Shown: piece after piece, positions 43,585 to 58,884 of the stretch
Numbering within the stretch: position 1 is the stretch's first letter
How the letters are laid out: every line of letters begins with the position of its first letter
Source of the DNA: Kineosporia sp. A_224
GTDB taxonomy: Bacteria > Actinomycetota > Actinomycetes > Actinomycetales > Kineosporiaceae
Length of the DNA stretch: 64,000 nt
NCBI RefSeq assembly: GCF_002198655.1
Contig: NZ_MWLN01000184.1
Location: forward strand, 1 to 64,000
Direction: 5' to 3'
Made by a program: the position numbers and the translations under genes
Notes under the pieces: model-generated
The model's database searches: none
What the model was told of the DNA's origin: nothing
What the model saw: only the letters and a program-made list of their open reading frames with translations

Positions 43585-45057
43585 TCAGCCGAGGTTGACG
43601 ACGACGGACTTGGTCCGCAGATACTCGGCGAGCGCCTCGGGGCCGTTCTCCCGGCCGTGGCCGGAGGCCCCGGTGCCGCCGAACGGCATCGCGACGTCGA
43701 GCAGCGACCAGCCGTTGACCCAGACGATCCCGGCGCGCAGCGCCGCGGCGACCCGGTGCACCCGGGCGACGTCCCTCGACTGCAGGCCGGCGGCCAGGCC
43801 GTAGGCGGTGCCGTTCGCGAGCGCGACGGCCTCCTCCTCGGTGTCGAACGGCTGCACCGTGACGACCGGGCCGAAGATCTCCTCCTGGACGAGCCGGGAG
43901 TCCTGCTGCACCCCGGTGACGACCGTCGGGGGCACGAAGAAGCCGCTCCCGGTCCGCTCCGGGCCGGAGACGACCTCGTAGCCCCGGCCGCGGCCGTGGT
44001 CGAGGAACTCCCGGACCTTCGCCGCGTGCCGGGCGCCGGCCATCGGGCCGATCACGGTGCCGTCGGCGAACGGGTCGCCGACCGGGACGCCCTGGACGGC
44101 GCCGCGCAGCGCACCGACGACGACGTCGTAGACTGGGCGCTCGACGAGCAGCCGGGTGCCGGCCATGCAGAACTGCCCGGTGTTGAAGACGAACGCGGCG
44201 ACGGCGGAGCCGATCGCGGCGTCGAGGTCGGCGTCGGCGAAGATGATGTTCGCGCCCTTGCCGCCGAGCTCGACGGTGACGTGCTTGAGGCCGGCCCCGG
44301 CGTCCTGCGCGACCTGCCGGCCGACGGCGCTGGAGCCGGTGAACGCGACCTTGTCGACCCCGTCGGCACCGACCAGTGCGCGCCCCGCGTCGGCGCCGCC
44401 GGTGACGACGTTGAGCACACCGTCCGGCAGCCCCGCCTCGTGGAACAGCTCGGCCATCCGCAAGGCCGACAGCGGCGTCTCCTCGGCCGGCTTGTGCACG
44501 ACCGTGTTGCCGCTGACCAGGGCCGCCGCGAGCTTCGTCGTCGACAGGATGAGCGGGAAGTTGAAGGGGGTCACCGCGGCGACGACGCCGTGCGGCTCCT
44601 TGCGGGTGTACGCGAACGCCGGGATCGACGTCGACCGGGCCGCGCCCTCGATCGTCGCGGCGAGCTGCGCGTAGTACTCGTAGGTGTCGGCCACGGTCGG
44701 GACGTCGACCGCCCGGGTGAACTGGAGCGGCTTGCCGACGTCGAGCGACTCCAGCCGCGCGAGCTCCTCGGCGTGCTCCCGGACCAGGCCCGCGACCCGG
44801 ACCAGCACCTCGGCCCGCCGCCGCGGCGGCAGCCCGGACCACACCCCGGAGTCGGCGGCCGAACGCGCCGCCCGGACCGCCCGTCCGACGTCCTCGGCAC
44901 CGGCCTCGGGGACCGTCGTGACGACGTCCCCGGTCGACGGGTCGAGGATCTCGCGGGTCCGTCCGTCGGCGGCCCCCGCCCGCTGCCCGCCGATCCAGAG
45001 CACCCCGGGTGCGGGCTCCGGACGTGCCACCGTCTGCTCGTCGGCCACCGCCGTCAT
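43585..45057 (-). CDS. NAD(P)-dependent aldehyde dehydrogenase
   Basis: A 490-aa aldehyde dehydrogenase with catalytic Cys in FVFNTGQFCMAGTR, general base Glu in VTVELGGKGANII, and cofactor residues in TPFNFPLILSTTKLA and FTGSSAVGRQV. I chose the ATG at 45057 because GAGGAGG lies just upstream; a longer reading from 45099 has no such site. It is probably the first gene of the minus-strand catabolic operon and oxidises the aldehyde from the adjacent alcohol dehydrogenase to the acid used by the ligase. Confidence 0.93.
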   Translation of the reverse strand: MTAVADEQTVARPEPAPGVLWIGGQRAGAADGRTREILDPSTGDVVTTVPEAGAEDVGRAVRAARSAADSGVWSGLPPRRRAEVLVRVAGLVREHAEELARLESLDVGKPLQFTRAVDVPTVADTYEYYAQLAATIEGAARSTSIPAFAYTRKEPHGVVAAVTPFNFPLILSTTKLAAALVSGNTVVHKPAEETPLSALRMAELFHEAGLPDGVLNVVTGGADAGRALVGADGVDKVAFTGSSAVGRQVAQDAGAGLKHVTVELGGKGANIIFADADLDAAIGSAVAAFVFNTGQFCMAGTRLLVERPVYDVVVGALRGAVQGVPVGDPFADGTVIGPMAGARHAAKVREFLDHGRGRGYEVVSGPERTGSGFFVPPTVVTGVQQDSRLVQEEIFGPVVTVQPFDTEEEAVALANGTAYGLAAGLQSRDVARVHRVAAALRAGIVWVNGWSLLDVAMPFGGTGASGHGRENGPEALAEYLRTKSVVVNLG

Positions 45058-45201
45058 CGTCGACCTCCTCGTCACGACTGCTGGAGCGACGAGAGTCACC
45101 GGCGCGGGGTGTCACCCGGGAGGGTGGAACCACCCCATCCACCACCCGTTCCGGTCCACCCGGGTACCCGTGGCCCCCGGCACCGGTCGCGCGCGGGCCG
45201 G

Positions 45202-47553
45202 CTACCGGGCCGCCGCGCGGCGCGCCGCCACCCAGCCGGCGACCTGGGTCCGGGAGGAGAACCCGAGCTTGGCGAGGATCCGCTCCAGGTGGCCGTCCAC
45301 GGTCCGCGGCGAGATGACCAGCGCGGCGGCGATCGCCTTGTTGCTCAGGCCCTCGGCGACGAGCTCGGCGACCGCGAGCTCCCGGGAGGTCAGCTCGCCC
45401 GGCCCCGGCGTGCCCGGTCCGGCAGTGCCCGGTCCGGCAGCCCCCGGACGCGCCGGCCGCGCGCGGCCCCCGTCGAGGACGGCCTCGACGACCTGGGCCA
45501 GCGCGGCGCCGGCGGGGATCCCGCCCGGGCGGCGGCCGCCGTCCTGCATCCGCTGCAGGCAGGCCGCCTGGTGACCGGCGAGCGGCGGGCCGAAGGCGGC
45601 GATCGTCGTCCCCGCGGTCCGCCAGGCGACGTCCGCCCCCGCGAGCCGGACGGCAGCCAGGTCCAGGTCGCCGGTCGACGCCGCGACCCAGGCCAGGGTC
45701 GAGATCATGAGCGCCACCCCGACCGAGTCGTTGAACCGGCGCTGGGTGGCCAGGCCCTCGGCGACCCGGGCCTCGGCCTGCGCCGCGTCGCCCCGCCGCC
45801 ACGCCTCGAAACCGAGCACCCAGAGCGTGTAGGAGCGGCACAGCTGCTCGCCGTGCTGCTCGCACAGGGCCAGCGCGCCCTGGCAGATCGCCACCGCGTC
45901 GCGGCCGCGGCCGCGGTGCACCTGGGTGATCGCGAGCTGGAAGTGGCTCCAGAGCAGGCCCTCGGTGTCGCCGTCGGCGGCCATCGTGGCGATCGCGCCC
46001 TCGAAGTGCGCCGCGGCGTCGTCGAGCGCGCCGGCGAACAGCGCCGCCGTCCCGCGCAGGCTCCGGGCGTGCGCGACCGAGGCGCCGTCGCCGACCCGGC
46101 CGCCGAGGGCCTCGCAGCCGTCGAGGCGGGCCGAGGCGGCCGGCTCGTCGCCCTGGAGCAGGCAGACCCAGGCGGCGACCCACAGCGCCCGGGCCCGCAG
46201 CGCGTCGTCCGGGGCCGGCAGCGCCAGGGCGGCGTCCAGCCACTGCCGGCCCTCGGCGAGGAAGTCGTCGGCGTACCAGTGGTTGCGCAGCCCGGCCACG
46301 AGCCGCAGCGCGGGCATCGGGTCGCCGTCCCCGGTGCGGACGGACGTCTCGAGCGCCGCCCGCAGGTTGCCGTGGTCGGCCCGCAGCCGCGCCAGGTCGC
46401 CCTCCTGCCGCGGCCCGCACCAGCGGGCGGCCGTCTCCTCGACGACGGCGAGGTAGTGGTCGCGGTGCCGCCGCGTGAGGTCCTCGACCTCGCCCAGCTC
46501 CTCGAGGCGCTCGCGGCCGTACTGGCGGATCGTCTCGAGCAGCCGGAACCGGACAGCAGGACCGTCGTGCTCACCCACGACGATCGACTGCGCGACGAGG
46601 TGGTCGAGGACGTCGAGCACCCCGGCCGCGGTGAGCGCACCGTCGTCCGAGCAGACCCCCTCGGCGGCGGCGAGGTCGAAGGAGCCGCTGAACACCGACA
46701 GCCGCGCCCAGAGCAGCCGCTGGGCCGGGGAGCACAGCGAGTGGCTCCAGTCGACGAGCGCGCGCAGGGTCTGCTGCCGGGGCTGCGCGGCGCTGCTGCC
46801 CGAGGTGAGCAGGGCGAAGCGGCTCTCGAGGCGCTCGACGACCTGCTCGACCGACAGCGAGCGCAGCCGGGTGGCGGCCAGCTCGATCGCCAGCGGGATC
46901 CCGTCGAGGCGGATGCAGAGCCGGGCCACCGCCTCGGCGTTCGCGTCCGTGACCGCGAACCCGGGCCGGATCGCGACGACCCGGTCGGTGAGCAGCCGGA
47001 CGGCGTCGAACTGGCTCGTCACCGCCGCGTGCTGCGGCAGCCGCAGGTCGGGGACGGCGAGCGGGGGGACGGCGAAGAGGTGCTCGCCGTCGACGCCGGT
47101 GGTGTGCCGGCTGGTGGCGAGCACGCGGACGTCCGTCGTCTGCCGCAGCATCCGGTCGACGAACCGGGCGCAGTCGGCGACGACGTGCTCGCAGTTGTCC
47201 AGGACGAGCAGGGCGTTGCGGTCCCGCAGGTGCTCGATGACCTTGTCGACGGCGGGCCGCGGCGAACGCTCGGCGACCCCGAGCGTGTTCGCGACGACCT
47301 CGGCGATCCGGCCGCCGTCCGTGATGACGGCGAGGTCCACGAACCACACGCCGGCGGTGAACGCGCGCCGGACGTCGGCCGCCATCGCCAGGGCCAGCCG
47401 GGTCTTGCCGACCCCGCCGGGCCCGGTGAGGGTGACCAGCCGGGACTCCCCCAGCAGCCGGCGGACGTCACCGAGCTCCCGCCGGCGGCCCACGAACCGG
47501 GTCACCGTCGCGGGCAACGTCCCTGGTGCCGCGGCCGACTGGTCGTCGTTCAT
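45202..47553 (-). CDS. LuxR-family regulator with AfsR/NB-ARC-like ATPase
   Basis: A 783-aa regulator. The N-terminal ATPase has P-loop TGPGGVGKTRLALAMA (about residues 43-58), LLVLDNCEHV (Walker B) and LCIRLDGIPLAIELAATRL (the GLPLA-like motif). A TPR-like helical region occupies about residues 350-680. The C-terminal LuxR helix-turn-helix reads LTSRELAVAELVAEGLSNKAIA, then SPRTVDGHLERILAKL. Such proteins sense an inducer and activate nearby operons. It lies between the two halves of the catabolic island, so it is a likely activator of one or both. Confidence 0.92.
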   Translation of the reverse strand: MNDDQSAAAPGTLPATVTRFVGRRRELGDVRRLLGESRLVTLTGPGGVGKTRLALAMAADVRRAFTAGVWFVDLAVITDGGRIAEVVANTLGVAERSPRPAVDKVIEHLRDRNALLVLDNCEHVVADCARFVDRMLRQTTDVRVLATSRHTTGVDGEHLFAVPPLAVPDLRLPQHAAVTSQFDAVRLLTDRVVAIRPGFAVTDANAEAVARLCIRLDGIPLAIELAATRLRSLSVEQVVERLESRFALLTSGSSAAQPRQQTLRALVDWSHSLCSPAQRLLWARLSVFSGSFDLAAAEGVCSDDGALTAAGVLDVLDHLVAQSIVVGEHDGPAVRFRLLETIRQYGRERLEELGEVEDLTRRHRDHYLAVVEETAARWCGPRQEGDLARLRADHGNLRAALETSVRTGDGDPMPALRLVAGLRNHWYADDFLAEGRQWLDAALALPAPDDALRARALWVAAWVCLLQGDEPAASARLDGCEALGGRVGDGASVAHARSLRGTAALFAGALDDAAAHFEGAIATMAADGDTEGLLWSHFQLAITQVHRGRGRDAVAICQGALALCEQHGEQLCRSYTLWVLGFEAWRRGDAAQAEARVAEGLATQRRFNDSVGVALMISTLAWVAASTGDLDLAAVRLAGADVAWRTAGTTIAAFGPPLAGHQAACLQRMQDGGRRPGGIPAGAALAQVVEAVLDGGRARPARPGAAGPGTAGPGTPGPGELTSRELAVAELVAEGLSNKAIAAALVISPRTVDGHLERILAKLGFSSRTQVAGWVAARRAAAR

Positions 47554-47598
47554 CGGGAGCGATCGTAGGTGCCCGCCCCCGGCCGGGCAGGAGCGGAC

Positions 47599-47615
47599 TT
47601 TCCGTCAGGCGGAAA
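47599..47615. promoter_or_regulatory. TTTCCG-N5-CGGAAA inverted repeat
   Basis: A 6-bp perfect inverted repeat with a 5-base spacer lies in the intergenic region between the LuxR-type gene and the VanA-type operon, 124 bp before the oxygenase start. It could be the operator of the nearby IclR or LuxR regulator. Confidence 0.5.
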
Positions 47616-47738
47616 CCCTGGTTCCCCGCGAGGTGGCCCGCACCACACCCTCGGCATGTCGCCGGCGACGGCGACGCCCCGACCGTCGGCCGGCAGCCCC
47701 CTCCCCGGGGACGCCGGCACCCACCCGCGGAGGTCCCG

Positions 47739-48845
47739 TTGAGCAGCCCCGTCACGTTCGTGCGCAACCAGTGGTACGTCGCGGCCTACGGCCGGGAGGT
47801 CACCTCCGAGGTCCTCGGCCGGACCGTCTGCGGCGAGGCGATCGCCCTGTTCCGCACCGGGTCCGGCACCGTCGCCGCCCTCGCCGACCGCTGCGTGCAC
47901 CGCCGGTTCCCGCTCTCCGCCGCGCCGAGCCAGGTCGTCGGCGACACCGTCGTCTGCGGGTACCACGGGTTCACCTACGACGGCACCGGCACGTGCGTCG
48001 CCGTTCCCGGGCAGAGCCGGGTGCCGCGGACGGCCCGGGTGACCGCGTACCCGGTCGTCGAGCAGGACTCGTTCGTCTGGGTGTTCATCGGCGACCCCGC
48101 GCTCGCCGACGCGACCCGGATCCCGCGGGCGCCCTGGCTCGCCGACGAGGCCTGGACGACGGTCAGCGGCATGGAGCCGCTCGCGGCACGCTGGGGCCTG
48201 CTCGTCGACAACCTGCTCGACCTGTCCCACGAGACGTACCTGCACGGCGGGTACATCGGCACCCCCGAGGTCGCCGAGACGCCGATCACCACCGAGGTCG
48301 ACGAGGAGGCCCGGATCGTCCGGGTCAGCCGGCACATGGCGGACGCCGCGTGCCCGCCGTTCTATGCGAACTCGACCGGGATCACCGGCCGGATCACCCG
48401 CTGGCAGGACATCGAGTACTTCCCGCCGTGCCTGTACACGCTGCACAGCCGGGTCGCCCCGGTCGGCGTCCTGCCGCCCGCCGAAGGCCCGGACGACGGG
48501 GCCTTCCACGTCGAGGTGGTCTACGCGATCACCCCCTCGACCGCGACGTCGACGTACGACTTCTGGGCCGTCGCGCGCGACTTCGCCCGGGACGACGAGG
48601 AGGTGAGCCGGTTCCTGCACGACAGCAACCGGACCGTCGTCCTCCAGGACGTCACCGCGCTGGACCTGCTCGAGACGGTCGTCGCCGCGGAGCCGGCCGG
48701 CACCCAGGAGCTGAGCATCAACATCGACACCGGTGCGCTCGCCGCCCGGCGGATGATCGCCGCGATGACCGCCGGGATGACCGCCGCGACCGACGCAGCG
48801 GTCGACGCAACGGCCGGGGCCGCCGCCGGCGCCGCGGTGCGATGA
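47739..48845 (+). CDS. Rieske aromatic oxygenase, VanA (vanillate demethylase)-type
   Basis: A 368-aa terminal oxygenase subunit. The Rieske cluster ligands are in CVHRRFPLS and CGYHGFTYDG. The mononuclear iron site is in DNLLDLSHETYLHGG. VRNQWYVAAYGREV is the VanA-type opening. Such enzymes demethylate methoxy-aromatic acids or hydroxylate similar rings with electrons from a VanB-type reductase. The TTG start has GGAGG five bases upstream. The Ala/Thr-rich C-terminal 30 residues are atypical. The 65-aa gene follows with a 4-bp overlap. Confidence 0.92.
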   Translation: MSSPVTFVRNQWYVAAYGREVTSEVLGRTVCGEAIALFRTGSGTVAALADRCVHRRFPLSAAPSQVVGDTVVCGYHGFTYDGTGTCVAVPGQSRVPRTARVTAYPVVEQDSFVWVFIGDPALADATRIPRAPWLADEAWTTVSGMEPLAARWGLLVDNLLDLSHETYLHGGYIGTPEVAETPITTEVDEEARIVRVSRHMADAACPPFYANSTGITGRITRWQDIEYFPPCLYTLHSRVAPVGVLPPAEGPDDGAFHVEVVYAITPSTATSTYDFWAVARDFARDDEEVSRFLHDSNRTVVLQDVTALDLLETVVAAEPAGTQELSINIDTGALAARRMIAAMTAGMTAATDAAVDATAGAAAGAAVR

Positions 48846-49039
48846 GCACGACCTTCACGGTCGACTGGCTGCCGGGCTCGGACGTCCTGCGCGGGCGCTG
48901 CCACTGCGGCGCGACGTCGTCCGCGCAGGACCCGGCGACCCTGCTCGACTGGCTCGGCGCGCACCCGGACGGGCACGACACGAGCGGCCCCGAGGCGCTC
49001 CTCGCGCCGCTGCCGGCGGGGGTGGCGGGCGATGCCTGA
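48842..49039 (+). CDS. Small CHC-motif protein between oxygenase and reductase
   Basis: A 65-aa protein with RGRCHCGATSSAQDPATLLDWL and a C-terminal Gly/Ala tail. It is coupled at both ends, by a 4-bp overlap with the oxygenase and an 8-bp overlap with the reductase, so it is made in step with them. The CxCG pair and a downstream His-rich segment (HPDGHD) could bind iron or zinc. I do not recognise the family; a cluster-assembly or subunit-adapter role is a guess. Confidence 0.72.
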   Translation: MSTTFTVDWLPGSDVLRGRCHCGATSSAQDPATLLDWLGAHPDGHDTSGPEALLAPLPAGVAGDA

Positions 49040-50072
49040 CCGGGACCAGCACCACGACCAGCACCACGACCAGCACCACGGCCAGGACCACGGCCAGGAC
49101 CACGACCTGCGTCTGGTCGTCGCCGACCGCTCCCGCGTCGCGGACGACGTCGTCGCGCTCGTCCTGCGGGCACCGGACGGCGGCCCGCTGCCGCCCTGGA
49201 CGCCGGGGGCGCACGTCGACCTCGTCGTCCCGGGCCCGGACGGGCCGCTGGTGCGGCAGTACTCGCTCTGCGGCGACCCGGACGACGCGACGTCCTACCG
49301 GGTCGCGGTGCTCCGGGAGCCGGCCGGCCGCGGCGGCTCGGCGGCCGTGCACGCGGCCCTGCTCCCCGGCACCGCGGTCGCGGTCCGTGGGCCGCGCAAC
49401 CGGTTCGTGCTCGACCCGGCGCCGGAGTACGTCTTCGTCGCGGGCGGGATCGGGATCACCCCGGTGCTCGCGATGGTCCGGGCGGCGGTGCTGGCCGGCG
49501 CCCGCTGGCACCTCGCGTACGGCGGCCGGACGGCGTCCTCGATGGCCTTCGTCGACGAGGTGACCGCGCTCGCCGCGGCCTCGGCGGGGGCCGGCGAGGT
49601 GGTGCTGCACCCGCTCGACGCCGGCGGCCCGCTGCCGGTGGCCGCGCTCGTCGAGCGCGCCGCGGCGTCCGGTGCGGGGATCTGGTGCTGCGGGCCGGAG
49701 GGGCTCATCGAGGCGGTCGAGAAGGAGGGCGACGCGCTCGGGCCGGGCCGGGTGCACGTCGAACGGTTCCGGGCCGCCACCGACCCGGCGCCCCAGGCCG
49801 GCGACGTCCCGTTCGAGGTCGAGGTCGCCTCCCACGGCGTCACGGTGACGGTCCCCGCCGGCCGGACGGCGCTCGAGGTGCTCGAGGAGGCCGGGGTCCC
49901 GGTGCTCTCGTCGTGCCGCGAGGGGACCTGCGGGACGTGCGAGGTGTCGGTGCTCGCGGGGACGGTCGACCACCGGGACGCGCTGCTCACCCCCGCCGAG
50001 CGGGACGCCCACGACACGATGTTCGTCTGCGTGTCCCGGTCCGCGGGCGGGCGGCTCGTCGTCGAGGTCTGA
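49032..50072 (+). CDS. VanB-type ferredoxin-NAD(P)H reductase
   Basis: A 346-aa reductase of the phthalate dioxygenase reductase class. The FMN-binding part has RQYSLCGDPDD. The NAD part has FVAGGIGITPVLAM and CCGPEGLIEAVE. The C-terminal plant-type [2Fe-2S] ferredoxin has SSCREGTCGTCE. The N-terminus is odd: about 20 residues of His, Gln and Asp repeats (DQHHDQHHDQHH and GQDHGQDHD) encoded by tandem 12-bp units. It transfers electrons from NAD(P)H to the VanA-type oxygenase. Confidence 0.93.
   Translation: MPDRDQHHDQHHDQHHGQDHGQDHDLRLVVADRSRVADDVVALVLRAPDGGPLPPWTPGAHVDLVVPGPDGPLVRQYSLCGDPDDATSYRVAVLREPAGRGGSAAVHAALLPGTAVAVRGPRNRFVLDPAPEYVFVAGGIGITPVLAMVRAAVLAGARWHLAYGGRTASSMAFVDEVTALAAASAGAGEVVLHPLDAGGPLPVAALVERAAASGAGIWCCGPEGLIEAVEKEGDALGPGRVHVERFRAATDPAPQAGDVPFEVEVASHGVTVTVPAGRTALEVLEEAGVPVLSSCREGTCGTCEVSVLAGTVDHRDALLTPAERDAHDTMFVCVSRSAGGRLVVEV
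49044..49103 (+). repeat. Five 12-bp tandem units in the VanB-type gene
   Basis: Three copies of GACCAGCACCAC are followed by two of GGCCAGGACCAC, encoding a His/Asp-rich N-terminal tail absent from typical reductases. Copy number may vary between strains. Confidence 0.9.
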
Positions 50073-50084
50073 CACCCTCACCGC

Positions 50085-50846
50085 GTGGGCGAGGGCAGCG
50101 CCGCCGCGCGCGGCTCGAGGACGGCGAGCGCACGGCTGCTCGCCGTCCTCGACGCGTTCGACGCCGAGCACCGGGCCCTGACCCTGTCCGCGCTCGCCCG
50201 GCGGGCCGGCCTGCCGGTGAGCACCGCCCACCGGCTCGTCGGCGACCTGCTCGCCTGGGGCGGGCTCGAGCGCGGCGACGACGGGCTGCTCCGGGTCGGG
50301 CTGCACCTGTGGGAGGTGGCGGCACTCGCGCCCCGCACGATCGGGCTGCGGGAGGCGGCCGCGCCGTCGATGGGCGACCTCTACGAGGCGACCCACGAGA
50401 ACGTCCAGCTCGCCGTCCGGGACGGCCTCGAGGTCGTCTTCGTCGAGCGGATCGCCGGGCGGCACGCGGTCCCGGTGCTCACCCGGGTCGGGCTGCGCTT
50501 CCCGATGTCCGCCACCGGCGTCGGCCTGGTGCTCCTCGCGTTCGCGCCGCGGGAGGTCCAGGAGGAGGCCCTGTCGTCCCCGCTCGAGCGCTTCACGGAG
50601 CGGACCGTCGTCGACCCGCGGCGGCTGCGGAGCATGCTCGCCGACGTCCGGCGACGCGGCATCGCGGTGAGCGACCGGCAGGTGACGATGGACGCCCTGT
50701 CCGTCGCCGCGCCCGTGCGCGGGCCGGACGGCGACGTCGTCGCCGCGCTGTCGGTCGTCGTCCAGGCGGACGGCGCCGGGCCGAGGACGCTCGCACCCGC
50801 CGTCCGGACCGCGGCGGCCGCGATCAGCCGGGCGCTGGCGCGCTGA
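50085..50846 (+). CDS. IclR-family transcriptional regulator
   Basis: A 253-aa regulator. The N-terminal winged helix reads LLAVLDAFDAEHRALTLSAL, then ARRAGLPVSTAHRLVGDLLAWGGLERG, and the effector domain has ERIAGRHAVPVLTRVG and RRRGIAVSDRQVTMDALSVAAPV. GTG start 12 bp after the reductase stop, so it is probably cotranscribed. IclR proteins commonly control aromatic-acid catabolism. Its 3' end overlaps the convergent kinase gene by 23 bp. Confidence 0.92.
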   Translation: MGEGSAAARGSRTASARLLAVLDAFDAEHRALTLSALARRAGLPVSTAHRLVGDLLAWGGLERGDDGLLRVGLHLWEVAALAPRTIGLREAAAPSMGDLYEATHENVQLAVRDGLEVVFVERIAGRHAVPVLTRVGLRFPMSATGVGLVLLAFAPREVQEEALSSPLERFTERTVVDPRRLRSMLADVRRRGIAVSDRQVTMDALSVAAPVRGPDGDVVAALSVVVQADGAGPRTLAPAVRTAAAAISRALAR

Positions 50847-51933
50847 CCTCCGGCCGCGGCGCCACCGCGGGACGGTGCCGGGCGACCCGCAGCGTGACGA
50901 CCGACCCGCCGCCGACCCGGTCGCGCAGCTCGGTGCCGCCGCCGTGGGTCTCGGCGATGGCCTTGACGATCGCCAGCCCGAGGCCGGTCCCGGGCCGGCC
51001 CGACGCCCGGGTCCCGCCGCTGCGCGAGGCCGCGAACCCCACCCCGGAGTCCTCGACGACGAGGTCGGCACCGTCGGCCGTCGGGACGCAGCGCACGAGG
51101 ATCGTGTCGCCGTCCGAGGTGAACTTGAGTGCGTTCTCCACGAGCGAGTCCAGCGCCGTCTCCAGCCGGGACTCGTCGCCCTCGACGACGACGGGGGCGC
51201 TCTCGACCCGCCAGTCCCGGTCCGCGGCGGGGCGCCAGCGCTGGACGGTGCGGCGGACGAGGCCGTCGAGGTCGACGTCGCCCCAGTCGAAGTGCGTCGC
51301 CTCGTAGGCGTCGGCGAGCTGCAGGAGCCGGTTGGCGAGCCCGCCCAGCTTGTCGAGCTCGTCCACGACGACGTCGACGTCCTCCCGGGCACCGTCGGTC
51401 TGGACCTGGCTGCGGACCAGCTCCGCGTACCCGCGGGCGACCGTGATGGGGGTGCGCATCTCGTGGGAGCAGTTGCGCACGAAGAGCTCCTTGAGCTCGT
51501 GCGCCCGCCGCTCGCGCTCCGAGGCCGCGAGGCTCTCCGCGAGCGCGGCGGCCCGCCGCCGGACGTGCCAGACCATGGCGAGGAAGACCCCGGCCATCAG
51601 GGGGACCTCGGTGAGCTCCATCCAGTCGGCGCCCTCGACGCGGATGAAGGCGGTCATCGCGAACGTCGTCGCGACGACGACGACGGCCAGGACGACGGAC
51701 GTCCGTCGGGCCGACCAGCCCTGGACGCCGTAGACGACCGACATCGACACCCAGATGACGTGGAACGCGATGACGCCGGCCGCCGCGAAGGCGACCATGA
51801 CGACCATGTTCGCCGCGGCGAAGAGCACCCAGGCGGCGAAGACGAGCTCGTCGCGGGAGAACCGGCCCGTGGCGGGCCCGGCGGCGGGCCCGGCCGCGGC
51901 ACGGGTCAGGTCGGTGGTCGCGGTGCCCGGCAT
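50824..51933 (-). CDS. Membrane sensor histidine kinase
   Basis: A 369-aa kinase with four N-terminal transmembrane helices (about residues 30-125) and almost no extracellular domain, so it may sense within the membrane. The H-box is RNCSHEMRTPITVARGY, the N-box SLVENALKFT and the G-boxes VEDSGVGFA and GTGLGLAIVKAIA. Its ATG shares one base with the response regulator stop (TGATG). Partner of the regulator encoded upstream and a likely controller of the multicopper oxidase. Confidence 0.92.
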   Translation of the reverse strand: MPGTATTDLTRAAAGPAAGPATGRFSRDELVFAAWVLFAAANMVVMVAFAAAGVIAFHVIWVSMSVVYGVQGWSARRTSVVLAVVVVATTFAMTAFIRVEGADWMELTEVPLMAGVFLAMVWHVRRRAAALAESLAASERERRAHELKELFVRNCSHEMRTPITVARGYAELVRSQVQTDGAREDVDVVVDELDKLGGLANRLLQLADAYEATHFDWGDVDLDGLVRRTVQRWRPAADRDWRVESAPVVVEGDESRLETALDSLVENALKFTSDGDTILVRCVPTADGADLVVEDSGVGFAASRSGGTRASGRPGTGLGLAIVKAIAETHGGGTELRDRVGGGSVVTLRVARHRPAVAPRPEVSAPAPG

Positions 51934-52595
51934 CAGGAGGCCGTGAAGAGGTAGCCGACGTTGCGGACGGTCTCGATCATCGGCAGCGGCATCTTGCCGC
52001 GGACCCTGCGGACCGTGACGTCGACGACGTTGCTGCTCGGGTCGTCGTAGCCCCAGACGCTGGAGAGCAGCTCGTCGCGGCTGCACACCTCGCCCGCGCG
52101 CCGCATGAGGTAGCCGACGAGGAGGAGCTCGCGGTGGGTCAGGGCGACGACCTTCCCGGAGACCTCGAGCACCTGCCGCTCGAGGTCGAGCGTCGCGGGC
52201 CCGACCCGCAGCCAGCGCTGCAGGCCCGTCGACTTCGGGGCGCGCAGCCGGGCCTGGACCCGGGCGACGAGCTCGGCCGCGGCGAACGGCTTGGTGAGGT
52301 AGTCGGTCGCCCCCATCCGCAGGCACTGGACGCGCGAGGCGACGTCGGCGACCGCGGACAGGATGAGGACGCGCTGCTCGGGGTCGTGGTTGAGGATCCG
52401 GCGCAGGGCCTCGAGCCCGTCGAAGCCGGGGATCATGAGGTCGAGGACGACGAGGTCGTAGACCTCCTCGTAGGTGCGCCGGACGCCGTCCGGGCCCGTC
52501 CCCGCGACGGCCACGAAGTGCCCGTCCGACTCGAGGGTGCGGACGATGAACGACCGCAGCCGTTCCTCGTCCTCGACCACCAGCAGGCGCGCCAT
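51933..52595 (-). CDS. OmpR-family response regulator
   Basis: A 220-aa regulator with receiver domain (VVEDEERLR, LVVLDLMIPGFD, LILSA, TKPFAAAEL) and winged helix (LTHRELLLVGYLMRRAGEVCSR, VDVTVRRVRGKM). I prefer the ATG at 52595, where VVEDE falls at the usual distance; an in-frame GTG at 52640 would add 15 basic residues. It is divergent from the multicopper oxidase gene. The tandem boxes at 52841-52868 are its probable binding sites. Confidence 0.92.
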   Translation of the reverse strand: MARLLVVEDEERLRSFIVRTLESDGHFVAVAGTGPDGVRRTYEEVYDLVVLDLMIPGFDGLEALRRILNHDPEQRVLILSAVADVASRVQCLRMGATDYLTKPFAAAELVARVQARLRAPKSTGLQRWLRVGPATLDLERQVLEVSGKVVALTHRELLLVGYLMRRAGEVCSRDELLSSVWGYDDPSSNVVDVTVRRVRGKMPLPMIETVRNVGYLFTAS

Positions 52596-53010
52596 CGCGC
52601 GTCCACCACCCTTCCTCCGAGCCGTTCGCCGGTCGCTCACCGGCCCTTGGGGACATCATCGGCGCTGTCATCGCGCGGCGTGAGTTTTCGCCCTCACCGC
52701 GGCGGCCCCGGATGACATGTGTCCCGTGACAGCAATCGCCCGAACGACGGACTGCGCCACGCCGACGGACCCTGCTAGCGACCCAGCGTGCCAGTTCCGT
52801 CACAGTCCGTCGACGGCTCATTCGGCCCCGCATGAAGCCCCGTCATGGGGCTGTCATCGACCTGTCATGCCGCCCCGATGACCCGGTTCTGACAGCCGCG
52901 TCATGAATGCAGACAGTTGCCGACCTGGGGCGCACGGTGTGCTCAGGGCACGTGCGTGAGCCGCGCTCTCCGTCACCGAATGGGGGTGACGGTCAGGGAG
53001 AAGGGGCGCA
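52596..53010. other. Regulatory intergenic region between the two-component system and the multicopper oxidase
   Basis: About 415 bp without a gene. Besides the three 11-bp-spaced boxes it has several other GTCAT/ATGAC words, such as CTGTCAT near 52664-52670 and ATGACATGTG near 52713, plus a small hairpin GTGAG/CTCAC near 52680-52698. GGGAGAAGGGG precedes the oxidase ATG. No small coding frame with a ribosome site was seen. Confidence 0.7.
52841..52868. promoter_or_regulatory. Three direct YGTCAT boxes at 11-bp spacing
   Basis: CGTCAT, TGTCAT and TGTCAT start at 52841, 52852 and 52863, exactly one helical turn apart. This is the arrangement bound by PhoB/OmpR-type regulators. They lie about 145 bp before the multicopper oxidase start. 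Confidence 0.75.
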
Positions 53011-56000
53011 ATGACACACACAGTGATGCGACACGTGCGAGGACGCCGTGCCGGCCGGGCCGTCGGACGGCGGCCGCTGACAGCGACGATCGCCGCGGCG
53101 GCGCTCGTCGGGGCTCTGACCGTCGCGCTGCCGGGGCTGGTGGGTGGCGCGGCCGAGGCCGCGACCCCCACGGGGCCGACCGACGCGTCGAAGGTCCCCC
53201 ACTACTTCGGCCCGTGGCCCAACTGGGCCCTGAGCCAGCTCACGACGCCCAAGGCGACCGTGGAGATCACCGGCAGCGGCACCGGCGCGACCGCCAGCGC
53301 GAACGTCGACCCGCTGACCGGCGGCATCGCGACGATCGACGTGACGAACGCCGGCAGCGGCTACACCGGCAGCGCGACCGTGACGATCGGCGGCGGCGAC
53401 CCCGGCAACGCGGCGACGGCGACCGCGACGGTGACGACGTCCGGCAGCGTCACCGGGTACACGGTCGGTGCGGCCGGTTCCGGCTACCGGTTCTTCGACG
53501 TCACCCTCACCGGCGGCGGCGGCACCGCCGCGACCGGGCAGGGCTCCGGCGGCGTCGACCCGACCATCACCATCACCGACGGCGGCGCGAACTACGTCAT
53601 GCCCACCGTCGAGTTCGACATGCCGGACCTCGCGAACGGCGTTCAGGCCAAGGGCCACGTCCCGATGGTCGCCAACGGCGACCCGGTCGACGGCATGGAC
53701 GCGAACGGCACGATCACCCAGGTCGTCGTCGACGAGCCGGGCTCGGGCTACCTCGCGGCCCCCGGGATCGCGGTGCACAACGGCACCCTCGCCGACCCGC
53801 TCGCCGGCGCCACGCTCGCGACGGCCACGACGACCCTGCACCTGACCGCGATCGACCCGGTCGACTTCGGCAGCGGCTACACCTCCGCGCCGGACGTCGC
53901 GGTGGCGGACGGCGACCAGACCGGGACCCCCGGCTCCGGCGCGACGGCGACGAGCGCGACGGACATCGGTGCCGTCACCGCGATCACCGTCGACACCCCG
54001 GGCGCCGGGTACCTCGCCGTCGGCATCCGCAAGTTCCAGGACGCGCTGCCGGTCACCTGCAGCCCGGCGGCGCCGGGCGGCTGCCCGACGGGCGCGACCG
54101 ACAAGTTCATCCCGCTCGGCGTCCCCGCGGCCAAGACGTACAGCGGCGAGGAGGCCGACGAGTACGTCATCGGCCTCGTCCAGTACCGGACGAAGTTCCA
54201 CACCGACATCGACCCGACGCTCGTGCGCGGCTACGTGCAGATCGAGACGCCGGACAACGCGGCCGTCAGCCAGCACGTCGCGCTGACGAACGAGCTGCTC
54301 GACGGCACGAAGGTGCCTGTCCTCGACACGTCCGGGCAGCAGGTCTTCGGCGTCACCGCGCCGCAGTGGCTCGGCCCGTTCATCGGTGCGACGAAGAACC
54401 GGCCGACCCGGATCGTCTTCCACAACTACCTGCCGACCGGCGCCAAGGGTGACCTGTTCCTGCCCGTCGACTCCACGATGATGGGTTCGGGCATGGGCCC
54501 GATGGACATGGGCACGCCGTTGGTCGACGACGGCACCGTCATGGACGGCGTCCGCAACCCGGACTGCACCCAGGAGCCCAAGGACGTCGCGCACTGCTTC
54601 ACGGACAACCGCGCCGAGCTGCACCTGCACGGCGGCACGACCCCGTGGATCAGCGACGGCACGCCGCACCAGTGGGTCACCCCGGCCGGCGAGAACGCCG
54701 CGTGGCCGCAGGGCGTCGCGGTGAGCAACGTGCCCGACATGGTCGACCCGGCCGACAACTCGGTGGTCTGCGACAAGACCGACGACGGCTGCCAGACCTT
54801 CTACTACACCAACCAGCAGAGCGCGCGGCTGATGTTCTACCACGACCACTCGTGGGGCATCACCCGGCTCAACGTGTACGCCGGCGAGGCCGCCGGGTAC
54901 GTCATCACCGACGAGACCGAGCAGGCGCTCGTGAGCTCCGGGACCATCCCCGGCGCGAACGACACCCTGCCGCTCGTCGTCCAGGACCGCACCTTCACCC
55001 CGGACGCCGCCCAGATGGCGCTCCAGGACCCGACGTGGGACGAGACCCGCTGGGGCACCAAGGGTTCGTTCTGGTACCACCACGTCTACATGCCGGCGCA
55101 GAACCCCGGTGACCCCTCCGGCATGAGCGCCTACGGCCGCTGGATGTACGGCCCGTGGTTCTGGCCGCCGGCGACCGGGACCCAGTACGGCCCGATCAAG
55201 AACCCGTACTACACGGCCGCCTGCAAGCTCGACGACCCGGCGACCTGGACCTACCAGACCGACCCGTTCTGCGAGCCGGAGCTCATCCCCGGCACGCCGA
55301 ACGTCTCCGCGGGCATGGAGCAGTTCAACGACACCCCGATCGTCAACGGTGTCGCCTACCCGACGGTGACGCTGCAGCCGAAGTCGTACCGGATGCGGCT
55401 CCTCAACGCCGCCAACGACCGCTTCTTCAACCTGCAGTGGTACACGGCCGACCCGACCCAGGGTGACGGCACGACCGAGGTCAAGCTCAACGCGGCCGAG
55501 CTGGCCGCCGCGCAGACCGACCCGAACGTCTCGCCGACGCCGGCCGACGCGAACAACAACGCGGCCGGTCCGGACTGGGTGCAGATCGGCAGCGAGGGCG
55601 GCTTCCTGCCCAAGCCGGCGGTCATCGACGGCCAGCAGCCGACGACCTGGATCACCGACCCGACGCGCTTCGACGTCGGCAACGTGGACCTGCACTCGAT
55701 GCTGCTCGCCCCGGCGGAGCGGTCCGACGCGATCGTCGACTTCTCGAAGTTCGCCGGCAAGACGCTCATCCTCTACAACGACGCTCCTGCGGCCTTCCCG
55801 GCGCGTGTCGCGTCGTACGACTACTACACCGGCGCCCCGGACATGAGCCCGAACGGCGCCCCGAAGATCCTGCCCGGCTACGGCCCGAACACCCGGACCG
55901 TCATGCAGGTCAAGATCGCCGCGGCGACGCCGGCACCGGCGTTCAACCTCACGAAGCTCACGTCCGCCTTCAAGCACAAGGCGAACGGCAGCGGCGTGTT

Positions 56001-58884
56001 CGAGTCCGGCCAGCACCCCGTGATCGTCGGCCAGGCGGCGTACAACACCGCCTACGGCACGTCGTTCGCGGCCGGCAGCAACTGCAACGGCGCGAGCACG
56101 ACGTCGACCTGCGACGGGCTCGTCCGGGTCAACGACACCGGGTCGTTCTCCTTCAACACGCTCAAGGCCCCGACGTCGAAGATGACGATCGGCCTGGAGC
56201 CGAAGGCGATCCACGACGAGATGAACTCCTCGACGTTCGACCCGTTCGGCCGGATGCAGGCCAACCTCGGCATCGAGGCGCAGCCGCCGACCCCGGGTGC
56301 GCAGAACGTCACGCTGTACCCGTTCACGAACCCGACGACGGAGATCATCGACGGCACGAACCTGGAGTCGGCGGGGGCCAAGGCCACCCCGATCTCCAGC
56401 GCCGCCGACGGGACGCAGATCTGGCGCATCACGCACAACGGCGTGGACACGCACCCGATCCACTTCCACCTGTTCGACGTCCAGGTGCTCAACCGCGTCA
56501 CGTGGGACAACATCGTCATCCCGCCGGACGACAACGAGCTCGGGTGGAAGGACACCGTGCGGATGTCACCGCTCGAGGACACCATCGTCGCGCTGCGGCC
56601 GCTCGTGCCGAAGACGCCGTTCGAGGTGCCGAACTCGGTGCGCCCGCTCGACCCGATGATGCCGCTCGGCAGCACCGCCGGCTTCAACAACATGGACGTC
56701 AACGGGAACCCGACGGCGGCCGTGACCAACGCGCTCGTCAACTTCGGCTGGGAGTACGTCTTCCACTGCCACATCCTGAGCCACGAAGAGATGGACATGA
56801 TGCGGCCGGTCGACCTGGCGCTGCCGCCGGCCAAGGCGGGCACCCTGTGGACCGAGAAGGTGGCCGACGGCGGGACGAACCGGTGGACCGTCCACTGGGA
56901 CGACAACTCGATCACCGAGACGGCGTTCACCGTCGAGCGGAGCACGGACGACGGGGCGACCTGGTCGGCCGTCGACACCGTGACCTCGCCGCTCGACGCG
57001 GCGAACATCCACCAGACGCGGTCGATGCCGGACCCGGCCTCCACCGCTGACGTCGGGACGACGCAGTACCGGGTCGTCGCCAAGAACACCGTCGGCTACG
57101 GCAACGGCTTCCCGACGAAGACCGTCCAGAGCGTCTCCGCGGCGTACACGGCGGTCGACACCCCGGCCCCGGCCGCGGCCACCGGTCTCACCGGCACGAT
57201 CGCCGCCGGTCCGGCCGTGGACCTCGCCTGGACCGACGGCGACCCCGGCGTCACGACCGCCTTCCAGGTGCAGCGCACGCTCACCGGGTCGGCGGCGTGG
57301 ACGACGATCGGGACGACCCCGGCCGCCACGACGACCTTCACGGACTCGGCCGTGTCCCAGGGCTCGTCGTACGACTACCGGGTCGTCGCGCTGAACGGCG
57401 GGCGCGCAGGCGCACCGTCGAACGTCGTGACCGTGGCGCTCGTCGCCCCGACCGCTCCGAGCACGCTCTCCGCGACGCTCGTGGCCGGCCCGGGTGCGGC
57501 GCTCACGTGGACCAACACGGCGACGAACGCCACCGGCGTCGTCGTCCAGCGGTCCACGAACGGCGGCGGGACCTGGTCGACGCTGGCGACCCTGGCGGCG
57601 ACCGACCAGGCGTACACCGACGCCGGACCGCTCGCGGTCGACTCGACGAACCTCTACCGCGTCTACGCGGAGAACCTCGTCGGGCCGAGCCCGGTCTCCA
57701 ACACCGCGTCCGTCGCGGCGGCCGCCCCGGCCGCACCGACGAACCTGGCGGCGAAGGCCCAGGCCGGCGGCGCGGGTCCCGAGGTCAAGGTGACCTGGAC
57801 CGACAACGCGACCGACGAGACCGGCTACACGGTCCAGCGGTCGACGGACGGCGGGACGAGCTGGACGACGCTCGCGAGCCTCGCGGCGGACGCCGTCCAG
57901 GCGATCGACCCGGGCCCGGTCGTGGCCGGAACGACGTACACGTACCGGGTCGGCGTGACGAACCTCGTCACGACGGTGTGGTCGGCGAACGTGTCGGTGA
58001 CCCCGGCGCTGGCGGCGGCCCCGAGCGGCCTGGCCGCGACGCTCGTCGCGGCGACGGCGACCCAGGACGCGAGCGTGAACCTCGTCTGGACGGACAACGC
58101 CACGGACGAGGACAGCACGGTCGTGCAGCGCACCACGGACGGCGGCGCGTCGTGGACGACGCTCACCACGTTCGCCGGCACCACCGGCACGGGTGCGCAG
58201 GCCACGATCGACCTGGCCCCGCTGCCGGGGGCGACGAACACCTACCGGGTCGGTGCGGTGAGCTTCCTCGGCACCAGCCTCTCCGGGACGGCGTCCGTCA
58301 CCCTGGTGGCACTGCCGGCGACGCCGTCCGGGTTCAGCACGCAGCTCCGGACGGGTCCGCTCTCGGTGCGGTCGTTCTGGACGGACGCCTCGACGAACGA
58401 GTCGGGCTTCTCGCTCCAGCGGTCCACCGACGGCGGCGCCACGTGGACGCAGGTCGCCACCCGTCCCGCCACGGCGGGCACGGGGACCGCGCTCAACCGG
58501 ACGGACACTGCGGTGACCCTCGGGTCGACGTACTCCTACCGGGTCGTCGCCTGGAACGCCGCCGGCCGGGCCCCCACGGGGACCCTGACGGTGACCGTCG
58601 CCGCCCCCGCGGCGCCGACCGTGACCACGCCGGCACAGGCGACGGCCACGTCGGCGACGAGGGAGTCCATCCCGCTCTCCTGGACCGCGGTCCCGGGAGC
58701 GGTGGACTACCGGATGCAGCGGTCCACCAGTGCGGCCGGGACGAACCCGACGACGGTCACCGTGACCGGGACGTCCGGGACGTTCACCAACCTCACCAAG
58801 CGGGTCTACTACGTCCGGGTCGGCGCCCGTAACGCGCTCGGCACGACGTACTCCCCGTGGGTGGCGGTCGCCGCGGCCCCCTGA
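53011..58884 (+). CDS. Giant secreted multicopper oxidase with FN3 repeats
   Basis: A 1957-aa secreted protein. The signal peptide ends near GAAEAA. Residues about 75-345 hold six repeats with a GSGY-like core. Four copper motifs follow: H538-L-H540 (LHLHGG), H611-D-H613 (YHDHSWG), H1148PIHFH1153 and HCHILSHEEMDM with C1253, H1258 and M1263. All trinuclear and type 1 ligands are present. About six FN3 domains fill residues 1290-1957. The THPIHFHLFDVQ block and the size recall manganese-oxidising MofA-like enzymes, so metal oxidation at the cell surface is plausible. Phenol or lignin-related substrates are an alternative. Confidence 0.92.
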   Translation: MTHTVMRHVRGRRAGRAVGRRPLTATIAAAALVGALTVALPGLVGGAAEAATPTGPTDASKVPHYFGPWPNWALSQLTTPKATVEITGSGTGATASANVDPLTGGIATIDVTNAGSGYTGSATVTIGGGDPGNAATATATVTTSGSVTGYTVGAAGSGYRFFDVTLTGGGGTAATGQGSGGVDPTITITDGGANYVMPTVEFDMPDLANGVQAKGHVPMVANGDPVDGMDANGTITQVVVDEPGSGYLAAPGIAVHNGTLADPLAGATLATATTTLHLTAIDPVDFGSGYTSAPDVAVADGDQTGTPGSGATATSATDIGAVTAITVDTPGAGYLAVGIRKFQDALPVTCSPAAPGGCPTGATDKFIPLGVPAAKTYSGEEADEYVIGLVQYRTKFHTDIDPTLVRGYVQIETPDNAAVSQHVALTNELLDGTKVPVLDTSGQQVFGVTAPQWLGPFIGATKNRPTRIVFHNYLPTGAKGDLFLPVDSTMMGSGMGPMDMGTPLVDDGTVMDGVRNPDCTQEPKDVAHCFTDNRAELHLHGGTTPWISDGTPHQWVTPAGENAAWPQGVAVSNVPDMVDPADNSVVCDKTDDGCQTFYYTNQQSARLMFYHDHSWGITRLNVYAGEAAGYVITDETEQALVSSGTIPGANDTLPLVVQDRTFTPDAAQMALQDPTWDETRWGTKGSFWYHHVYMPAQNPGDPSGMSAYGRWMYGPWFWPPATGTQYGPIKNPYYTAACKLDDPATWTYQTDPFCEPELIPGTPNVSAGMEQFNDTPIVNGVAYPTVTLQPKSYRMRLLNAANDRFFNLQWYTADPTQGDGTTEVKLNAAELAAAQTDPNVSPTPADANNNAAGPDWVQIGSEGGFLPKPAVIDGQQPTTWITDPTRFDVGNVDLHSMLLAPAERSDAIVDFSKFAGKTLILYNDAPAAFPARVASYDYYTGAPDMSPNGAPKILPGYGPNTRTVMQVKIAAATPAPAFNLTKLTSAFKHKANGSGVFESGQHPVIVGQAAYNTAYGTSFAAGSNCNGASTTSTCDGLVRVNDTGSFSFNTLKAPTSKMTIGLEPKAIHDEMNSSTFDPFGRMQANLGIEAQPPTPGAQNVTLYPFTNPTTEIIDGTNLESAGAKATPISSAADGTQIWRITHNGVDTHPIHFHLFDVQVLNRVTWDNIVIPPDDNELGWKDTVRMSPLEDTIVALRPLVPKTPFEVPNSVRPLDPMMPLGSTAGFNNMDVNGNPTAAVTNALVNFGWEYVFHCHILSHEEMDMMRPVDLALPPAKAGTLWTEKVADGGTNRWTVHWDDNSITETAFTVERSTDDGATWSAVDTVTSPLDAANIHQTRSMPDPASTADVGTTQYRVVAKNTVGYGNGFPTKTVQSVSAAYTAVDTPAPAAATGLTGTIAAGPAVDLAWTDGDPGVTTAFQVQRTLTGSAAWTTIGTTPAATTTFTDSAVSQGSSYDYRVVALNGGRAGAPSNVVTVALVAPTAPSTLSATLVAGPGAALTWTNTATNATGVVVQRSTNGGGTWSTLATLAATDQAYTDAGPLAVDSTNLYRVYAENLVGPSPVSNTASVAAAAPAAPTNLAAKAQAGGAGPEVKVTWTDNATDETGYTVQRSTDGGTSWTTLASLAADAVQAIDPGPVVAGTTYTYRVGVTNLVTTVWSANVSVTPALAAAPSGLAATLVAATATQDASVNLVWTDNATDEDSTVVQRTTDGGASWTTLTTFAGTTGTGAQATIDLAPLPGATNTYRVGAVSFLGTSLSGTASVTLVALPATPSGFSTQLRTGPLSVRSFWTDASTNESGFSLQRSTDGGATWTQVATRPATAGTGTALNRTDTAVTLGSTYSYRVVAWNAAGRAPTGTLTVTVAAPAAPTVTTPAQATATSATRESIPLSWTAVPGAVDYRMQRSTSAAGTNPTTVTVTGTSGTFTNLTKRVYYVRVGARNALGTTYSPWVAVAAAP

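Follow-up and report, generated by a model that had tools for sequence, protein, structure and literature searches.

The 64,000-nucleotide stretch analyzed here (the window; contig NZ_MWLN01000184.1 of Kineosporia sp. A_224) carries the gene of a giant multicopper oxidase (MCO) and, upstream of it and in divergent orientation, the genes of a two-component system (TCS). An initial annotation had described a 1957-residue MCO, three to four times the size of a normal laccase, with metal-oxidase features and a dedicated TCS. The following features belong to the oxidase.

53011-58884, + strand: giant multicopper oxidase gene, 1957 amino acids (open reading frame and translation, third-position G+C, identity to strain R_H_3)
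53011-53160, + strand: predicted N-terminal signal peptide, RRPLTATIAAAALVGALTVALPGLVGGAAEA (read from the sequence, cleavage site inferred)
53242-54021, + strand: all-beta module of GSGY repeats, between PHYFGPWPNWA and GIRKF (motifs, relatives, AlphaFold2)
54022-56835, + strand: CotA-like three-domain multicopper oxidase core, residues 338-1275 (alignments, PDB profile search, Foldseek)
54622-54636, + strand: copper motif HLHGG with H538 and H540 (motifs, alignments)
54838-54873, + strand: copper motif YHDHSWGITRLN with H611 and H613 (motifs, alignments)
56449-56475, + strand: copper motif THPIHFHLF with H1148, H1151 and H1153 (motifs, alignments)
56764-56802, + strand: copper motif HCHILSHEEMDMM with H1252, C1253, H1254, H1258 and the axial M1263 (motifs, alignments)
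56842-58881, + strand: seven tandem FN3-like repeats (repeat motifs, Pfam, PDB matches)

The size and class assigned at the outset were borne out. The open reading frame list and the translation show a single uninterrupted frame from 53011 to 58884, its codon bias is strongly coding (third-position G+C of 0.97), and an orthologue in Kineosporia sp. R_H_3 is 92% identical across the full length; in a third Kineosporia genome the gene is broken off at the contig end. With 1957 residues the protein is 3.8 times as long as CotA (513 residues). As to the surface location raised in the initial annotation, the predicted signal peptide is Sec-like, and no obvious cell-wall anchor was seen within the reading frame.

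As judged from alignments and profile searches, the core is a CotA-like three-domain MCO. A PDB profile search with the core returned CotA with an E-value of 4.5e-51, and CotA was also the best Foldseek match, at 18% identity and spanning the whole core. All twelve copper ligands, claimed to be complete in the initial annotation, were found in the motifs HxH, HxH, HxxHxH and HCHxxxH...M, and they are invariant both in an alignment of 10 sequences and in one of 26 that takes in divergent relatives. The Kineosporia enzyme thus shares the three-domain copper core and the full ligand set with the CotA laccase of Bacillus. It differs from the latter in the length of the core, which at about 940 residues is almost twice that of CotA owing to insertions, in the low overall identity and in its extra modules; moreover, CotA is a spore coat protein, while the Kineosporia oxidase is secreted. 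Since the AlphaFold2 model of the full core was of modest quality, with a predicted local distance difference test (pLDDT) score of 56.8, no substrate site was read from it. One relative of 1243 residues (L071, 6964-10692) keeps the overall sequence pattern and the FN3 domains and has apparently lost its copper ligands (HPVRFDGCD for HPIHFHLFD and CLQDNTVG for YHDHSWG); judging from these replacements, it is possibly a non-catalytic descendant.

GSGY-type repeats had been reported before the core and FN3 domains after it. Both are present, but the GSGY module does not precede the conserved unit: it is inserted within it, between the conserved PHYFGPxPNWA motif and the start of the core at GIRKF. 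It contains five GSGY/GAGY motifs and one GANY at residues 115-334. In Geomonas, which is without the module, about 30 residues lead from PHYFGPxPNWA to GIRKF; the module is present in other actinobacteria, and relatives from Streptomyces and the Chloroflexi have longer insertions at this position. AlphaFold2 predicted an all-beta structure with high confidence (pLDDT 88.5), for which no PDB counterpart was found by sequence or by fold. Foldseek gave weak matches to GSGY-repeat virion proteins of cyanophages (probability up to 1.00, ~20-24% identity), and this resemblance suggests a binding role, although TM-scores were low, only short stretches were covered, and the Kineosporia module is part of an oxidase. 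The FN3-like repeats run from about residue 1278 to residue 1957, with repeat motifs at residues 1309-1903; in this region Pfam fn3 stayed under its cut-off, Reelin_subrepeat-B exceeded its own, and PDB matches were to titin and FN3con. The GSGY module and the FN3 repeats are accessory domains through which the enzyme is probably attached to a surface, mineral or polymer.

The regulatory genes and the promoter lie directly upstream of the oxidase gene.

51933-52595, - strand: OmpR-family response regulator, 220 amino acids from its ATG; an alternative upstream GTG at 52640 is possible (Pfam Response_reg, Trans_reg_C)
50824-51933, - strand: sensor histidine kinase, 369 amino acids, overlapping the regulator stop codon (Pfam HisKA, HATPase_c)
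52841-52868, + strand: three direct YGTCAT boxes with 11-bp spacing, in Kineosporia only (exact repeats)
52889-52904, + strand: predicted operator, inverted repeat CTGACA-N4-CGTCAT, CTGACAGCCGCGTCAT (window copy of ATGACA-N4-TGTCAT)

A TCS was found linked to the giant oxidase in five genera, namely Kineosporia, Streptomyces, Kitasatospora, Arthrobacter and Cryobacterium. Streptomyces and Kitasatospora likewise have a divergent pair, with a regulator that is 63-67% identical to that of Kineosporia, while in Arthrobacter and Cryobacterium the arrangement differs and regulator identity is 43-46%. In the oxidase tree the TCS-linked loci lie within two separate clades, and the linkage requires three changes. 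The linked regulators share a conserved recognition helix, (S/T)NVVDVxVRRxR. No comparable full-length kinase homologue was found in the box-less genomes of Cellulomonas, Tessaracoccus and Knoellia, and Terrabacter has one diverged kinase copy that is not linked to the oxidase.

The site that is conserved across genera is not the set of direct boxes but the inverted repeat, in the form ATGACA-N4-TGTCAT or one close to it. It lies upstream of the oxidase in all TCS-linked loci and in none of the unlinked loci examined, with 0-2 mismatches in the former versus at least three in the latter. The exact motif is a single copy in six of the eight linked genomes, and a reversed-pattern control gave zero. 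The three YGTCAT boxes on which, together with the divergent regulator genes, the initial annotation had based its claim of tight control are indeed exact and rare: the expectation for the triple pattern in the window is 0.01, even allowing two mismatches, and the double pattern occurs at just three places in the 7.2-Mb genome. Nevertheless, they are absent from the other TCS-linked loci and were ruled out as the conserved operator; in Kineosporia, to which they are confined, they perhaps strengthen the inverted-repeat site. A scan of the promoter for sigma-70 elements and terminators yielded nothing. Taken at the level of sequence, linkage in five genera and two oxidase clades, accompanied by a conserved operator, gives good support to a TCS dedicated to the oxidase and to its tight control, and we put this association forward as a provisional new finding.

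The degenerate motif has three copies in the Kineosporia genome. Besides that at the oxidase, one (ATGACACTGACGTCAT; L200, G000 contig C173, 4207-4222) immediately precedes a paralogous pair of regulator and kinase genes, with identities of 48% for the regulator and 36% for the kinase and no oxidase nearby. The third (L199, G000 contig C148, 1105-1120) is situated about 50 bases upstream of a possibly co-regulated gene, whose secreted product of 824 residues gave weak matches of beta-propeller-like and fn3-like type.

As to the signal, the N-terminal domain of the kinase is hydrophobic and without a sizeable extracellular sensor part, and its membrane part contains conserved FH.(V/I)W and E..E..LM motifs and a conserved H; sensing appears to be a function of this membrane domain. 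A CopC-CopD fusion gene separates the oxidase from the TCS in Arthrobacter, and this makes a copper-related signal likely; in Cryobacterium luteum two further CueO-type MCOs adjoin the system. The linkage of the TCS in two oxidase clades suggests that it senses something tied to the enzyme, most simply its copper supply, and copper is our first guess for the signal. CopSR of Corynebacterium glutamicum, which senses copper stress and acts through a regulator of the OmpR type that recognizes tandem repeats of 9 bp (PMC3353115), is similar in being an actinobacterial OmpR-type TCS with repeat sites and a copper-induced region; the two transmembrane segments listed for its kinase (PMC3353115) count as a further likeness. 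The operators differ, the one in Kineosporia being a predicted N4 inverted repeat accompanied by 11-bp direct repeats.

A single pattern scan of the GTDB genomes gave 452 relatives of the oxidase, the best 80 of which were kept. These come from Actinomycetota (Cellulomonas, Terrabacter, Knoellia, Streptomyces, Kitasatospora), Geobacteraceae, Desulfo-lineages, Chloroflexota and archaea. Core identity with relatives in other families reaches 70-74%, whereas among the Kineosporiaceae sampled orthologues occur only in the genus Kineosporia, the other genera giving short, weak MCO matches; this distribution suggests horizontal spread. Three relatives have neighbors of the kind described for the mofA/ompB (mofABC) clusters (PMC5566968): L148, which is 45% identical over the core, adjoins genes for SCO1/SenC and for a cytochrome-c/Peripla_BP_6 protein, L183 adjoins an FKBP isomerase gene, and L097 has a CCP_MauG cytochrome, a second MCO and an FKBP nearby. 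Neither mofB (FKBP) nor mofC (cytochrome c) nor SCO1 neighbors were found in Kineosporia or the Streptomycetaceae. Like MofA of Leptothrix discophora and OmpB of Geobacter sulfurreducens, the Kineosporia oxidase is a large, secreted MCO with FN3 domains, and the SCO1 and cytochrome-c/periplasmic-binding neighbors of L148 are shared with the published mof/omp clusters. It differs from both in the absence of a mofB/mofC-type neighbor and in having the GSGY insertion, seven FN3 repeats and the TCS. As regards the EXXE motifs, which in OmpB bind Fe(III), the Kineosporia sequence has a single occurrence (E381-E384). The neighborhoods support, without proving, a MofA/OmpB-like family, the likeness being drawn from description and gene context. 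The metal-oxidase features of the initial annotation therefore hold at the family level only, through these neighborhoods, and nothing in the Kineosporia sequence identifies Mn(II) as the substrate.

Two observations on this family are added here. The 780-residue MCOs of Geomonas/Citrifermentans were considered as OmpB candidates; their MCO domains were confirmed, and no SCO1 or cytochrome neighbor was seen. A di-haem CCP_MauG cytochrome gene lies 3' of the giant oxidase in several genomes of Chloroflexota and Desulfo-lineages (L115, 11615-13045; L088, 6089-7426; L097, 12013-13431), and its product is a possible electron partner of the enzyme.

Our results make it probable that the Kineosporia protein is a secreted, O2-reducing MCO of the large MofA/OmpB-like type that is switched by its own TCS. 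The CotA-like core would take electrons from an extracellular substrate at the type-1 copper (C1253, H1148, H1258, M1263) and pass them to O2 at the trinuclear cluster, a route that follows from the ligands and from established knowledge of MCOs. The membrane-embedded kinase would most likely read copper or a copper-linked redox state and phosphorylate the OmpR-type regulator, which in turn would bind the TGTCAT half-sites at 52841-52904 and turn on the oxidase when metal or substrate is available. Sequence comparison establishes the fold, the copper ligands, the TCS linkage and the conservation of the operator; regulator binding, the copper signal and metal oxidation are inferences. MofA/OmpB-like large oxidases, whose substrate and inducer are unsettled, are suspected to drive extracellular Mn/Fe redox chemistry. 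In tractable genera such as Streptomyces and Arthrobacter, the conserved TCS and its defined operator offer a handle on their natural role through the inducer of the operator.

Several points weigh against this interpretation. The loci that served to test the operator consensus were also those from which it had been derived, the window copy has two mismatches to the consensus, and 2 of 200 shuffles match as well. The Terrabacter genome (G833; contigs C1, C8 and C13) has four exact sites, none of them at its giant oxidase; the exact motif may serve another regulator there. Kinase and regulator fall below all NCBIfam copper-subfamily cut-offs, the best model for the regulator, TIGR01387 (CopR/CusR), scoring 164.9 bits against a cut-off of 279.2. 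Copper genes were not among the neighbors seen at the window's own locus, and the neighbors are not conserved in the Streptomycetaceae. The likeness to MofA, OmpB and MnxG was set by descriptions rather than by authenticated sequences, and the sequence gives no evidence on the substrate, for which Mn(II), Fe(II), Cu(I) and phenols are all possible candidates.

Among the narrower readings, a laccase-like oxidase of phenols or lignin fragments that serves the adjacent genes is tentative at best. The genes at 43585-50846 look aromatic-catabolic (an aldehyde dehydrogenase, a LuxR/AfsR-like regulator, a Rieske oxygenase, a reductase and a PcaR-type IclR regulator), and the core, which is CotA/PhsA-like, matches o-aminophenol oxidase, but with 120 bits where the PhsA cut-off is 950 bits. 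Furthermore, these genes belong to a different transcription unit, located on the far side of the TCS. Since no aromatic-catabolism genes were recovered by clustering as recurrent neighbors of the oxidases of other relatives, they were rejected as functional partners.

We consider it unlikely that the enzyme is a Mn(II) oxidase depositing extracellular Mn oxides, a possibility raised in the initial annotation and comparable to MnxG/McoA, which in Pseudomonas putida GB-1 are controlled by MnxS1/S2-MnxR. The neighborhoods of relatives resemble mofA clusters (PMC5566968), Mn(II) oxidation has been reported for CotA of Bacillus pumilus (PMC3618234), and Mn-oxidizing Pseudomonas likewise place large MCOs under a TCS (PMC8218464, PMC11930936). 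Set side by side by description, however, Kineosporia has a single kinase, adjacent and divergent, with a regulator of the OmpR type in place of MnxS1/S2-MnxR; MofA and OmpB are themselves described as still to be verified (PMC5566968), a Mn-specific residue or gene was not identified, and the many relatives in anaerobe lineages and archaea make O2-dependent Mn(II) oxidation unlikely as a common role. Copper-stress defense by Cu(I) oxidation, with the TCS as a CopRS-like sensor, accords with the copper genes beside the system in Arthrobacter and C. luteum and with CopSR of C. glutamicum, but is doubtful given 1957 residues with adhesion-like modules, that no linked copper exporter or chaperone was seen in Kineosporia or the Streptomycetaceae, and the fact that copper sensing could equally serve only to load the enzyme.

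Returning to the MofA/OmpB-like oxidase under its own TCS, a more far-reaching proposal, which we regard as quite improbable in its full extent, is that an actinobacterial unit of membrane-sensing kinase and OmpR-type regulator, acting through ATGACA-N4-TGTCAT operators, was acquired on separate occasions by two clades of giant MofA-like oxidases and switches on extracellular Mn/Fe oxidation in soil actinobacteria according to copper or redox state.

Elsewhere in the Kineosporia genome, a rearranged remnant of the locus was found (L201, G000 contig C39, 7151-7601), in which an FN3 piece of the oxidase is joined directly to a C-terminal part of the regulator. The DNA of the FN3 piece is 95.5% identical to window positions 56861-57061 and that of the regulator part 89.3% identical to 52182-51930. 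This suggests that the locus once had a second copy, now decayed or scrambled, unless the junction is due to the assembly.

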